Shown in pieces: positions 2,555-63,652 of a stretch of 64,000 nucleotides of DNA. A program made the translations under genes and the position numbers. Location of the stretch: assembly GCA_963971575.1 (NCBI GenBank), contig OZ020615.1:63931379-63995378 (forward strand), in the 5' to 3' direction. Numbering within the stretch: position 1 is the stretch's first letter; the number at the start of each line of letters is the position of its first letter. Source of the stretch: Liopterus haemorrhoidalis. Lineage: Eukaryota > Arthropoda > Insecta > Coleoptera > Dytiscidae. The notes under the pieces were generated by a model that had not been told where the DNA came from, searched no databases, and saw nothing but the letters and a program-made list of their open reading frames with translations.

Positions 2555-2705
2555 TCTTGTGTCATAGACCTCGTTTCGTCCCATTTCATCCCTCTTCTTG
2601 ATGCCGCTTTTTGAATTCCATTTTTCCACGTTCTTCTTGGTCTTCCTCTGAACTTTCTTTTAGGTGTCCTTGCTTCAAAAACAATTTCTGGTTCTCTTTT
2701 ATGGT
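2555..2705 (-). pseudogene. C-terminal tail of a second non-LTR retrotransposon
   Basis: The minus-strand peptide KRKFRGRPRRTWKNG followed by KWDETRSMTQDQ matches the conserved tail (GRPR.RW, then W..A.DR.RW) of RTE-like and related RT proteins. A similar tail lies at 48.9-49.2 kb. It abuts family A copy A1 at 2701. Confidence 0.6.
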
Positions 2706-3768
2706 TTTTAGGGTTTTGTAGGTATGACCAAAAAACCCTTATACCGTCATTTTGTCGTCTGTCTGTCTGTCTGTCTGTCTGTTCGGTAAAAATTGTAGCC
2801 AAACGGCTAAACCTAGAGAGTTGAAATTTGGCATGCTTACACAACTTTTTGACCCGCACATAGGAAAAATACTAAAACATCTAAAAAACATATCCCCCTA
2901 AAAATATAAGCAAATATATGCTCATCGAAAAAAAAATATTTTTTTACAGTTCTGTGTAGGGTATCAAATGAAAGCCCTTGGTACATGGAAAACGATCAAA
3001 ATTTTATTTTTGCAAAATAAATTATTTTGAGGCGATTTTTGCCAAAATTGTGCAGAAAAAAAATTGTCCCACACCCTGTAGCCCAGATGGTTTAAACTAA
3101 AAATCTGAAAAAATTCTAAGTAATGTACATTGGTGTGAGCCGGAATAGTACAACAGGAATTTTTGATCAGATTATGTTTTCGGAAAATAACTCATTTTTT
3201 GTGTTTTTAACTAAAATATGTAAAATATTTAATCGGCTATTTAACATTGTAAACGAGTGAACCTGCGTAGTACAGTCGTAACGTTGACGCTTCGTGAGTT
3301 GAAACTACTGTAAGAAACTACTGTTCGAATCCCGTCAATTTTTATTTTTTGTTTTTTTTTTTGCATTTTTATTTTGTTTAAATTATTTTGTCAAAATTCT
3401 AGTTATATTTTGGCAAATGTTGCATTTAATTTTTAAAAGCGTAAATTTAATAACCAGTGGAAAGTGTTGAAATTATAATTTAATTCTATGTTTGAATGTA
3501 TACGAAATCAGAGGGGCGGAGTTTATGACTTAAATAACCAATGGAAGCCGTAGGCGCAATTTTCAAAATATTAGTGAACCTTGCTATATAAAAAAATACT
3601 GTAAATATTTAGAAACCCAAATAATGGTATTAGGCATTCGAATTAAAATTAATAAAAAAATATTTTAACACAAAATTTGTTTTGGCATTCCAAATAATCA
3701 TCATTCACTTACTAAATACCTGCGAAACTCTGAAATGTGTGAAAATTCACACTTCACATAATTTTTTC
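2701..3768 (+). mobile_element. Family A copy A1 (Helentron-like)
   Basis: Starts TTTTTAGGGTTTTGTAGGTA, has a short (TCTG)n tract at about 2758-2782, then the conserved body. Its 3' end carries the subterminal inverted repeat CCTGCGAAA-CTC, the hairpin GTGTGAA-AA-TTCACAC and CTTCACATAATTTTTT. No protein is encoded. The peptide read across the 5' end recurs only because the DNA is repeated. Confidence 0.8.
3262..3340 (+). other. tRNA-like Pol III module of A1 (type 1, Ala-like)
   Basis: A-box-like TAGTACAGTCGTAACG at 3268-3283 and B box GTTCGAATCCC at 3323-3333, followed at once by runs of T (TTTTTATTTTTT and longer), which would act as Pol III terminators. Closely similar modules are in A3 and A8. 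No acceptor stem pairs convincingly, so this is tRNA-derived rather than a functional tRNA. Confidence 0.65.
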
Positions 3769-4029
3769 TACATTGCTCTGCTTTGGAGAACATCCCAAAA
3801 TAAGTTTAAAAAACTATGGATTTGTTTTGTAAGGAAGAACTTTACCAAAAAGGTGTAAACTAGTATAATTAATAGTTTTATTTTAGAATAGGACACATAT
3901 TTTTTATCTATTGATCCAAAACGTGAAAACACATATTTTTCAGCAATCATAACAAAAAGTAGTAGACAAGTAAAAAGCTGTGAAAACTCATACTTTCATG
4001 AAATAATCCAACAGTTGTAAATCTTTGAA

Positions 4030-4290
4030 GTGGGTGCGATTTACCTCGCCCGCCCCCCTGTCCCTCCATGATCTCTCCCCGCTGTAAACGGGCGGCAAAC
4101 TCATTTGCATGGAGATGAGTCTGTCACGGCATTGTAGCGCCGTAGAGCGTCTGGGAGCAGCGTCGCGGCGCTAGTGGGTGCTCCTCCCACTCTCCACGAC
4201 CTTATCATTTGTCAGGGCATCACGTGGGGGCGGTTGAAAGAGGGGGTGGAAAGTTCACTTGGCCTGATTGCGGGCGCCCACTATAATCCG
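4030..4290. promoter_or_regulatory. GC-rich island with octamer, E-box and GC-box motifs
   Basis: About 260 bases of clearly higher GC than the surroundings. It contains ATTTGCAT at about 4110 (octamer), CACGTG joined to GGGGGCGG at about 4222-4233 (E-box plus GC box) and several short GC palindromes (GCGCC/GGCGC). No open frame runs through it. It could be a promoter or CpG island of a gene outside view, or part of an unrecognised repeat. Function is inferred from motifs only. Confidence 0.35.
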
Positions 4291-4435
4291 CTATTGCTCC
4301 TAAATATTTTATTAACGGAAAAGCTATATTAGTTTATAGGTATTCCATGGGCGGTTACCACCTAAAAACTTATTAATATTTATAATAAACAGTGGCGTGC
4401 GTACGAAAACTTACCATTAGCCATACAATTACACG

Positions 4436-5125
4436 TGACCTAAACTATTTTGAGGCTATTTTTGCGAAAATTGTGCAAAAAAAAATTTGTCCCACATCCT
4501 GTAGCCCAGATCGTTTAAACTAAAAATCTTAAAAAAATCTAAGTAGTGTACATTTGTGTGAACCGGAATAGTACAATAGGAATTTTTGATCAGATTATGT
4601 TTTCGGAAAATAACGCATTTTTTGTGTTTTTTGCTTGACCATGTAAAGTATTTAATAACTTATGTAACAAAGCAAGCCAGCATGCTTTCATGGTGTAATG
4701 GTTAGCGTTCTCGCGTTCTAATTTGCAAACTAGGGTTCCGGTCTCGAGACAATTTTATTTTTTTTGTTTTTTTTTTCATATTTATTTTGTTTAAATTGAT
4801 TTTTCAAAATTCTAGTTATATTTGGGCAAATGTTGCATTTAATTTTTAAAAGCGTAAATTTAATAACCGGAGTTATGACTTAAAACAATCAATGAAAGCC
4901 ATAGGGGCAATTTTCAAAATCTTAATGAACCTTGCTATATATATAAAAAAAACTGCACATATTTAGAAACCTAAATAATGGTATCAGGCATTTGAATTAA
5001 AATTAATAAAAAAAAAATAATATAAAATTTGTTTTGGCATCCCAAATAATCATCATTCACTTACTAAATATCTGCGAAACCCTGAAATGTGTGAAAATTC
5101 AAACTTCACATCAATTTTTTCTGGA
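4436..5125 (+). mobile_element. Family A copy A2, 5' truncated
   Basis: Joins the family consensus inside the body and lacks the AGGGTTTTG start and the (TCTG)n tract. It ends with the family hairpin and CTTCACATCAATTTTTT. Two further 3' ends follow downstream in the same orientation, giving a cluster of three A tails within 1.4 kb. Confidence 0.75.
4684..4752 (+). other. tRNA-like Pol III module of A2 (type 2, Gln-like)
   Basis: TTTCATGGTGTAATGGTTAG resembles the 5' half of eukaryotic tRNA-Gln, with an A box at 4691-4708. A B-box-like GGGTTCCGGTCTCG lies at 4733-4746, 42 bases later as in a real tRNA, and is followed by ATTTTATTTTTTTTG. It is clearly different from the A1 module although it sits at the same place in the element. 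Confidence 0.65.
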
Positions 5126-62262: not shown

Positions 62263-62390
62263 TATAGTAGAAAATAATTACAAATAAAAGCATTTTTATC
62301 ACTCGGAACTGAACCGAAAACCGAAAAAATACGTAATTTTTCCGGAACGAAAACCGGAACCGAACTGATATATAATTTTTTAATTGAATC
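62263..62390. mobile_element. Partial copy of the 59.8-kb hAT-like element
   Basis: AATTATAGTAGAAAATAATT, ACTCGGAACTGAACCGAAAA and CCGGAACCGAACTGATATAT match 60074-60210. It directly follows the last satellite unit. Confidence 0.7.
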
Positions 62391-62393
62391 TGC

Positions 62394-62665
62394 ATAAAAT
62401 TAATATGGTTTCGTCTCCTTTCTGTCCGTGTGATAATTTGTCTGTCAGCGATTCGAACCATTTATTATTCAAATGCCCAATTCATTTTCGCAATCGTAAC
62501 TTATTCATACAAAATTTAGTTCAAAAATATACGTTCCTACCAATATTGAGACACTTCTTGCTACTAACTCTCTAGATATTTATAAAATTATTTATAACTA
62601 TATTAAAGCAGAAAATATCAAATTATATTTAAAAACCTGTAATGTATTTATTTAGCTAATAGCCA
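62394..62665 (+). pseudogene. I/Jockey-type RT C-terminal fragment
   Basis: INMVSSPFCPCDNLSVSDSN followed by HLLFKCPIHFRNRNLF: the C-x1-C...H...C knuckle of non-LTR RT tails. Stops appear after 62575. The 3' end reads TTTAGCTAATAGCCAAAGCT, which nearly equals the satellite unit start. Confidence 0.65.
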
Positions 62666-62684
62666 AAGCTGCTAAAGCCAACCA

Positions 62685-63652
62685 ATAAAATTGATGTGAA
62701 GTGTGAATATTCACACATTTCAGGGTTTCGCAGGTATATAATAAGTGAAGGCGGTATGCTGAGTGTGTAGGACAAATTTTAGTTTGTAGTAATCACGGCA
62801 AAATGAACGATATTTTTAAAATAATTTATCGTCTGTTAATCATATAATAAGACTGGTTATTAAATTTACGCTCTTAAAAATTAAATACAACATTTGTCAA
62901 AATATAACTAGAATTTTGACAAAATAATTACAACATAATAAAAATGCAAAAAAAAAACAGAAAAAATAAAATTCGCTCCGTACTCGAACTCGAAACCCTT
63001 CGTTTTCCAGCTTACGACACCAGTGCTCTAACCCATTAAGCTATCGCACGCCTTGCATGTGAGTGTCTTACATTGGTATAACTTTTGTACTTTGTGAACC
63101 AAAAACCACAAAAAATGCGTTATTTTCCGAAAACATAATCTGATCAAAAATTCCTGTTGTACTATTTCGGTTCACATCAATATACATTACTTAGAATTTT
63201 TTTAGATTTTTAGTTTAAACCATCTGGGCTACAGGGTGTGGGACAAAAATTTTTTTGCACAATTTTGGCAAAAATCGCATCAAAATAATTTATTTTGCAA
63301 AAATAAAAATTTGATCGTTAATCCACGTACTAAGGGCTTTCATTTGATACCCTACTCAGAATTAAAAAAAAATATTTTTGTTTCCGATGAGCACATATTT
63401 GTTTATATTTTTAGGGGGGTATGTTTTTTAGATGTTTTAGTATTTTTCCTATGTGCGGGTCAAAGAGTTGTATAAGCATGCCAAATTTCAACTCTCTAGG
63501 TTTAGCCGTTTGGCTACAATTTTTACCGAACAGACAGACAGACAGATAGACAGACAGACAGACAGACAGACAAACAGACAGACACACCGACAGACGACAA
63601 AATGACGGTATAAGGGTTTTTTGGTCATACCTACAAAACCCTAAAAAGGGAA
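62685..63652 (-). mobile_element. Family A copy A10 (type II 3' end)
   Basis: 3' end AAATTGATGTGAAGTGTGAA at 62687, subterminal repeat GGGTTTCGCAGGTATATAAT, then the type II segment (AGTAATCACGGCAAAATGAA), 5' end CCTACAAAACCCTAAAAAGG at 63650. (CAGA)n with GATA and CAAA interruptions near 63530-63592. Confidence 0.85.
62970..63052 (-). other. tRNA-like Pol III module of A10 (type 6, Thr(CGT)-like)
   Basis: Reverse complement begins GGCGTGCGATAGCTTAATGG, A box about 63024-63043. An anticodon-like stem-loop lies at 63007-63023: CTGGT and GCTGG pair (with G-U pairs) around the 7-base loop GTCGTAA, with T before anticodon CGT and A after, as in tRNA-Thr. B box GAGTTCGAGTAC at about 62981-62992, T-runs after. 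The acceptor stem is not preserved. This is the most tRNA-like of the modules. Confidence 0.7.

Follow-up and report, generated by a model that had tools for sequence, protein, structure and literature searches.

Variable tRNA-like A/B-box modules at the centre of a HINE-like transposon family in Liopterus haemorrhoidalis

Background

Why do copies of one transposon family share their flanks and differ in their centres, and why do these centres resemble tRNA genes? The question is raised by 64,000 nt of the genome of the beetle Liopterus haemorrhoidalis (GCA_963971575.1, contig OZ020615.1, 63,931,379-63,995,378, forward strand), here called the window, which contains nine copies (A1-A9) of what we term family A, each about 0.9-1.1 kb long except the truncated A2. 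An earlier note on this DNA had described the centres as tRNA-like RNA polymerase III (Pol III) modules of at least six kinds, which the family was inferred to acquire or swap repeatedly. We assign a probability of about 0.53 to the reading that family A is a family of Helentron-associated interspersed elements (HINEs) with one ancestral tRNA-derived Pol III promoter, diverged modules of which have been re-paired with flanks among copies.

Results

Averaged over pairs of the nine copies in 60-column windows, identity amounts to 0.89-0.96 in the left flank, 0.75-0.95 in the right flank and 0.55-0.64 in the centre core. It falls from about 0.93-0.96 directly left of the centre to 0.55 within it and returns to about 0.94 beyond, while a second, lesser drop (0.75) at approximately columns 900-960 is accompanied by indels and the divergent 3' part of A9. 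When A8 and A9 are compared with A1, A3, A4, A6 and A7, a comparison within the window that is independent of the genome query below, left flanks are 93-96% identical and modules 35-59%. The flanks thus align and the centres differ, as had been described. Divergence of the centres at the flank rate, which the earlier note had proposed to check, is ruled out by these identities as well as by the cluster identities and Gst values given below, the centre being far more divergent.

A7 served as query against the 1.02-Gb assembly (91 contigs), in which an exact 32-mer just left of the centre was found 8,342 times (4,102 + 4,240) and its reversed control 0 times. The genome sample consists of the first 100 listed sites of this 32-mer, which span 5.5 Mb on contig C1. 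A8- and A9-like types differ at GTGTTTTT, the last bases of the 32-mer, so that they are under-represented, and sampled copies of one type are not independent of each other. At 244.1-244.7 Mb of C1, five family A copies (L019, L023, L025, L026 and L027) with near-identical centres probably form a segmental duplication array.

Box pairs were scored at 18 positions of the consensus TRGYNNARTGG and GGTTCRANNCC. Eight of the nine centres hold an A box and a B box (score 15-17), ordered, spaced and oriented as in a tRNA gene; seven of these exceed all 1000 dinucleotide shuffles, and the score of A2 was reached in 8/1000. A4, rightly named before as the decayed exception, lacks the B box and scores 11, no better than chance; by eye it resembles type T11, whose 15 sampled copies score 15-16. 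A scan of both strands of the window at a score of at least 16 returned seven places. Six are the modules of A1, A3, A5, A7, A8 and A9, each oriented like its element, and the seventh is a short interspersed element (SINE) outside family A at 1374-1428; A2 and A6 (score 15) lie below this cut. Ten Markov-random 64-kb controls returned 0, 2, 1, 0, 0, 1, 0, 0, 0 and 0. Pairs scoring at least 15 were present in 90/100 sampled centres, in 3 right flanks, in no left flank and once on the reverse strand. Shuffles, random controls and the flank and reverse-strand counts rule out chance boxes, and recurrence at the same place in 8/9 window and 90/100 sampled centres rules out a SINE inserted in a single copy.

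In all 89 copies scoring at least 14 among the first 90, the B box is followed by a run of at least four T at a distance of no more than 49 nt (median 6 nt), and in most copies the A box begins 58-59 nt from the left border (55 in T11). The claim of a tRNA-like module at a fixed site, in element orientation and followed by a T-run, is thereby borne out. Runs of four or more T between the boxes occur in 9/89 copies as opposed to 32.5 by shuffling, copies not being independent, and are absent from 13 of 15 module sequences. Judged by sequence alone, A box, B box and T-run terminator have the order and register of a Pol III type 2 promoter.

ARAGORN called no tRNA, Rfam gave no match at the gathering threshold, and RF00005 had no match up to E 10 over the whole window. 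A narrow Rfam search of A9 gave 15.3 bits against a cut-off of 29, and ARAGORN with lowered thresholds made weak calls on 8/9 pieces, one also on the opposite strand. T-stem pairs number 2.47/5 in the 15 modules, by our own reckoning about chance plus the fixed G-C pair, versus 4.96 in 25 tRNAs (10 genes of this genome and 15 reference sequences). Real tRNA genes are ruled out by the absence of ARAGORN and Rfam gathering calls and by the T-stem. Since boxes and terminators persist with T-stem pairing at chance, the module is best described as promoter-like rather than tRNA-like. Most likely it serves the source copies as a promoter for Pol III or as a TFIIIC site, a prediction made because boxes and terminator are kept without stem pairing and premature runs of four T are rarer than in shuffles.

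The ends of family A fit the description of HINEs, non-autonomous Helentrons, in the available text of PMC4067079, which places subterminal inverted repeats (subTIRs) of 12-15 bp some 2-4 nt inside the 5' end and some 38-60 bp inside the 3' end. End structures were compared in eight copies, A2 being left out. The first 40 bases are identical in 8/8 copies with a 5' end, AGGGTTTTGTAGGTAT stands behind five T in all eight, and behind the 5' end sequence TTTTTAGGGTTTTGTAGGTATGACC of these copies comes a (GTCT)n array whose length varies, present in 8/8 aligned copies having that part and short in A5 and A7. An inverted subTIR copy with one or two changes lies 34-36 nt from the 3' end in 7/8 (by pattern search; not A1), slightly nearer than the published range. 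A hairpin or palindrome GTGTGAANNTTCACAC lies 15-16 nt from the 3' end (14 nt in A9) and T-runs occupy both ends, each in 8/8 copies. The assignment to one Helentron-like family is thus supported by HINE ends. A canonical Helitron (5' TC, 3' CTRR, A/T insertion) is ruled out by ends in TTTTTAGGG and mostly CAATTTTT. tRNA-derived SINEs begin at the 5' end with a tRNA-related head and have a tail that is A-rich or derived from a long interspersed element; such a SINE is ruled out, as the module is internal and the 3' end consists of a hairpin and a T-run. Exact searches gave 0 matches each for a 39-mer and a 20-mer of the 5' end in viral_contigs, and 0 for a 23-mer in genome_contigs.

Clustering at a 25% distance cut sorted the modules of 89/90 copies (L038, without a right border, was left out) into 13 clusters of 19, 15, 15, 10, 8, 6, 5, 4, 2, 2, 1, 1 and 1 copies, so that "at least six kinds" stands in the sense of sequence types. 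Identities were compared over 77/89 copies with a centre under 230 nt and a cluster of at least four, after which T5 retained one copy. Centres are 0.88-0.94 identical within clusters and 0.41-0.80 between. Left-flank identity is 0.95 within T1 and likewise 0.95 between T1 and T11; T9 left flanks are shorter or more diverged (0.76 within, 0.78-0.86 to other clusters, the single T5 copy apart). Right flanks of T6-T9 and T11 are 0.84-0.88 identical between types, and those of T1 and T2 are 0.72-0.75 identical to these.

Differentiation between types (Gst) was calculated per 25 columns, "inside" being the first 125 centre columns, with a value of 1.00 at the invariant 32-mer columns that is meaningless. 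For five related types (53 copies), Gst is 0.08-0.21 on the left, 0.63-0.71 inside and 0.08-0.50 on the right; for seven types (76 copies) it is 0.09-0.32, 0.75-0.84 and 0.36-0.77. The jump sits at the T-rich left border, and in the five related types Gst drops again rightward. Left and module identity correlate at 0.10 over 4,950 pairs. On trees of 64/76 copies, for which a left-flank match over 380 nt was required, type labels change 6 times in the centre, 12 and 14 times on the right, 22 times in the proximal left and 30 times in the distal left flank, as opposed to about 40 when shuffled. Type association fades with distance from the module, as recombination predicts; fewer informative sites in the distal left flank would likewise raise the count there. 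Between-type module identity (median 0.648) is barely above that of shuffled pairs (mean 0.596, 95% point 0.632) and therefore cannot date the types. Within-type diversity (Hs) of the module lies inside the range of distant flank stretches (up to 0.20 left and 0.105 right). Strong hypermutation of inserted copies is ruled out, within-type variation being at most about twice that of adjoining flanks.

Direct traces of exchange were sought as second modules in the six of 89 copies with a centre of at least 230 nt. Two of the 89, L085 and L107, carry two tandem modules of different type with a left-flank piece between them: T11 (95%) followed by an A6-like module (93%) in L085, and T5 (97%) followed by an A8/T3-like module (81%) in L107. 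A deletion between the left-flank pieces would put the left flank of the first copy before the second module, which amounts to a swap. The remaining four long centres appear to be insertions or right-flank rearrangements. Mosaic 3' ends also occur, a divergent end version being found in T1 (5/5 shown), T2 (3/4), A9 and L007.

For tRNA ancestry, modules were matched to 10 tRNA genes of this genome, one per kind out of 18 retrieved, and to general reference sequences for Gln, Glu and Gly. The best matches are Gln for T4 (25, next 18), T5 (21) and A2 (20); Thr-AGT for A9 (21); Glu for T2 (18.5, Gly 17.5) and T3 (18); Ala-CGC for T6 and T7 (18 each); Arg for T8 (16.5, Lys 15.5); Gly for T1 (15.5); and Thr for T11 (15). 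The match exceeds all 200 shuffles in 10/15 module sequences; in the other five, T1, T9, T10, A6 and A8, it stays at or below the highest shuffled score (p 0.005-0.02). A tree of the 15 modules and 26 tRNA-type sequences over 73 columns has three module groups: T4-T11 with A2 and A6 (10/15 sequences; moderate support, 87/85), T1-T3 with A8 (95/88), and A9 alone, beside Thr/Ala/Arg-side tRNAs (83/75). Forcing all modules into one clade costs 4.9 log units, and the approximately unbiased (AU) test does not reject a single origin (p 0.351).

Six separate captures are thereby ruled out as an established fact, and separate tRNA ancestries of the kinds of module are not established. As to clustering with distinct tRNA genes, the types do differ in their best tRNA matches, but the tree allows a single module clade. 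Because a single origin stands and the upstream stretch of about 58 nt, homologous by look, keeps the same length in most copies, on our own reading the types are probably lineages of one or few modules and not six captures. The matches suggest at most about three ancestries, Gln-like, Glu/Gly-like and Thr-like.

Older relatives with no tRNA-like centre were seen as left-half pieces of 73-77% identity (L009:1125-1229, L009:14-202 and L011:2511-3241), and in L011 one of them begins where a younger copy has its 3' end. Downstream of the three stretches examined, no A and B pair scores above 13, the background level. This hints that the tRNA-like module may be a later gain in family A.

The features of family A in the window are collected in Table 1. 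A2 is followed by additional incomplete 3' ends of family A (5154-5409, 5603-5680 and 5793-5847), as if tandemly added.

Table 1. Positions of family A copies, modules and A7 termini in the window
Feature	Position	Strand	Remarks
A7 5' terminus	47330..47374	+	subTIR AGGGTTTTGTAGGTAT behind five T
A7 3' end	48327..48379	+	subTIR copy 36 nt, hairpin GTGTGAAAATTCACAC 16 nt from end
Copy A1 (HINE)	2705..3767	+	Alignment; 3' subTIR unmatched by search pattern
A1 module, A box to B box	3268..3332	+	Score 16/18; by eye between T7 and T6
Copy A2, without 5' part	4441..5120	+	Alignment
A2 module, Gln-like	4684..4752	+	Reference tRNA-Gln 20, next 14.5; box score 15
Copy A3	9186..10260	-	Alignment, ends
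A3 module	9617..9680	-	Score 17; 92% identity to A7
Copy A4	14656..15745	+	Gap removes B box; T11-like type by eye
Copy A5	37059..37955	-	Internal deletion within left half
A5 module	37488..37541	-	Score 16; T9-like type by eye
Copy A6	42287..43380	-	Alignment, ends
A6 module	42711..42790	-	Score 15; TTTT between boxes
Copy A7	47330..48379	+	Alignment, ends
A7 module, type T6	47886..47949	+	Score 17; T6 consensus best match own Ala-CGC, 18
Copy A8	56888..57964	+	Alignment, ends
A8 module	57469..57522	+	Score 17; groups with T3 (97/86), T1, T2; run of five T between boxes
Copy A9	62687..63647	-	3' part a different version, common to 5692-5846
A9 module, Thr-like	62978..63050	-	15.3 bits to Rfam tRNA, cut-off 29; match to own Thr-AGT 21

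Besides family A, the window holds the separate tRNA-derived SINE (1290-1445, minus strand; A and B box 18/18, A-rich stretch behind the body) and a second (GTCT)n repeat family with a different 5' sequence, ACATTTCGAGATTTCGATGG, at about 393, 25550, 28594 and 55434 (minus strand), where the window box scan found no boxes. Also seen were a minisatellite of about 29-base units that is open in two reading frames (44482-45350), a long MITE-like palindrome whose two strands are matched by weak miRNA models (24597-24705), and open reading frames at 58888-59388 (minus) and 6700-7212 (plus) that by eye look like part of a mariner transposase and like a reverse transcriptase.

Discussion

In the proposed sequence of events, family A would have moved as a HINE by a rolling-circle transposase, and its ancestor would have acquired a tRNA-derived Pol III promoter with an A box about 58 nt past the T-rich border, a B box and a strong T-run. 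Several module lineages would then have diverged, still carried by source copies, and modules would have been re-paired with flanks when copies recombined ectopically or when replication by rolling circle switched templates. Such re-pairing would leave one young left flank before module types of very different age. Pol III or TFIIIC may use the module, an open TFIIIC-bound centre could help the element through access, nicking or survival in chromatin, and replication stalling at the module may promote switches. Taken together as an exchangeable Pol III cassette, in which TFIIIC and Pol III open copies and stall replication and switches at the T-rich borders swap modules, these steps make up a scenario that we regard as unlikely; if true, it would make family A the first rolling-circle element known to us with its own Pol III unit and a diversifying route.

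Several observations weigh against the proposed sequence of events. Runs of four or more T stand between the boxes in 2/15 module sequences. Double modules are limited to 2/89 copies, and the largest clade contains gradual intermediates, such as the series T7, L061, A1 and T6, by eye with an apparent short tandem duplication. Nor is the left flank free of type: it shows 23 label changes compared with about 40 shuffled, its mean identity over all pairs of the 77 copies is 0.903 within types and 0.884 between, and the medians in the genome sample are 0.936 and 0.900. Because within-type Hs is 0.08-0.11 in the upstream stretch and module, about twice that of adjoining flanks (0.04-0.06), some faster change within the module is possible. 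The gradual series and the within-type variation favour a single ancestral, Gln/Glu-like module without exchange, which in source copies would have evolved much faster than the flanks through relaxed constraint, diversifying selection or transcription-associated mutation. The AU result, the clade of 10/15 modules and the constant A-box register also agree with it. Yet within-type variation of the module is no higher than in distant flanks and far below a several-fold excess, one left flank is common to three module groups, and rearrangement does happen, as seen from the copies with two modules and from the mosaic 3' ends; we consider this alternative possible, if rather doubtful.

Capture of different tRNA genes or SINE heads, time and again, at one site would explain the differing best matches, among them those of T4 to an animal reference Gln, of A9 to this genome's Thr-AGT and of T2 to a reference Glu, together with the Ala-CGC matches of T6 and T7, the 10/15 modules above all shuffles and the position of A9 on the tree. 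That tree has low resolution, a single clade passes, most types group with Gln-like sequences, and a constant register behind a seemingly homologous upstream stretch is unexpected for independent insertions, which makes repeated capture quite improbable. Of the earlier proposal that the family acquires or swaps promoters, the swapping half is favoured by discrete types weakly tied to the left flank and by the two double-module copies; repeated acquisition of tRNA genes is not supported, in view of the main clade, the gradual series, the constant length before the A box and the AU test. A different objection concerns function: an old tRNA or SINE piece might have hitch-hiked without a role, its boxes persisting merely through the youth of the copies. 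The missing cloverleaf, the T-stem at chance and the lack of ARAGORN and Rfam calls at threshold are compatible with such a fossil, a real possibility that we nonetheless doubt. Boxes recur across widely differing types, terminators are present in 89/89 copies with few internal runs of four T, and A4, now lacking a B box, is by eye similar to T11, in which all 15 sampled copies score 15-16.

HINEs are usually regarded as being carried along passively. That thousands of copies possess a Pol III-type module, with no more than a weak tie to the left flank, suggests a functional component. Family A may thus serve as a natural experiment on internal sequence exchange in rolling-circle elements and as a testable case for whether Helitron-like elements capture non-coding RNA genes, and it could seed TFIIIC sites across the genome.

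Family A resembles tRNA-derived SINEs in its degenerate tRNA-like A/B boxes and many copies; unlike in SINEs, the module lies inside the element, some 500 nt from its 5' end, between termini of the HINE kind. With HINEs and DINE-1, as portrayed in the available text of PMC4067079, it shares the 5' subTIR with an inverted copy near the 3' end, the 3' palindrome, T-rich ends, a microsatellite array and very high copy number. DINE-1 is reported to be without Pol III binding sites and tRNA-related structures in the accessible part of PMC2374699, whereas the centre of family A holds a tRNA-like A/B-box module. A tRNA-Cys cluster overlapping Helitrons in Arabidopsis (PMC10701932) likewise places tRNA sequence inside Helitron-annotated DNA, but, as far as that text goes, as one local cluster. 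No report of a HINE with a tRNA-like centre was found among the open-licence PubMed Central (PMC) papers searched, and the available portions of PMC8010984 and PMC6887750 describe no such element.

The closest parallel to the exchange of centres is oyster Cg_HINE, in which unrelated central modules lie between related flanks (PMC7492417). Some of these elements hold two central arrays, much like L085 and L107, and its authors propose recombination between flank-sharing elements. The cassette arrangement as such, which the earlier note did not know from Helentron-like elements, has therefore been described before. The Cg_HINE centres are satellite-like tandem repeats according to the same source, whereas that of family A is a Pol III-type module; a tRNA-like HINE centre thus looks new for this class of transposon, swapped centres themselves being known.

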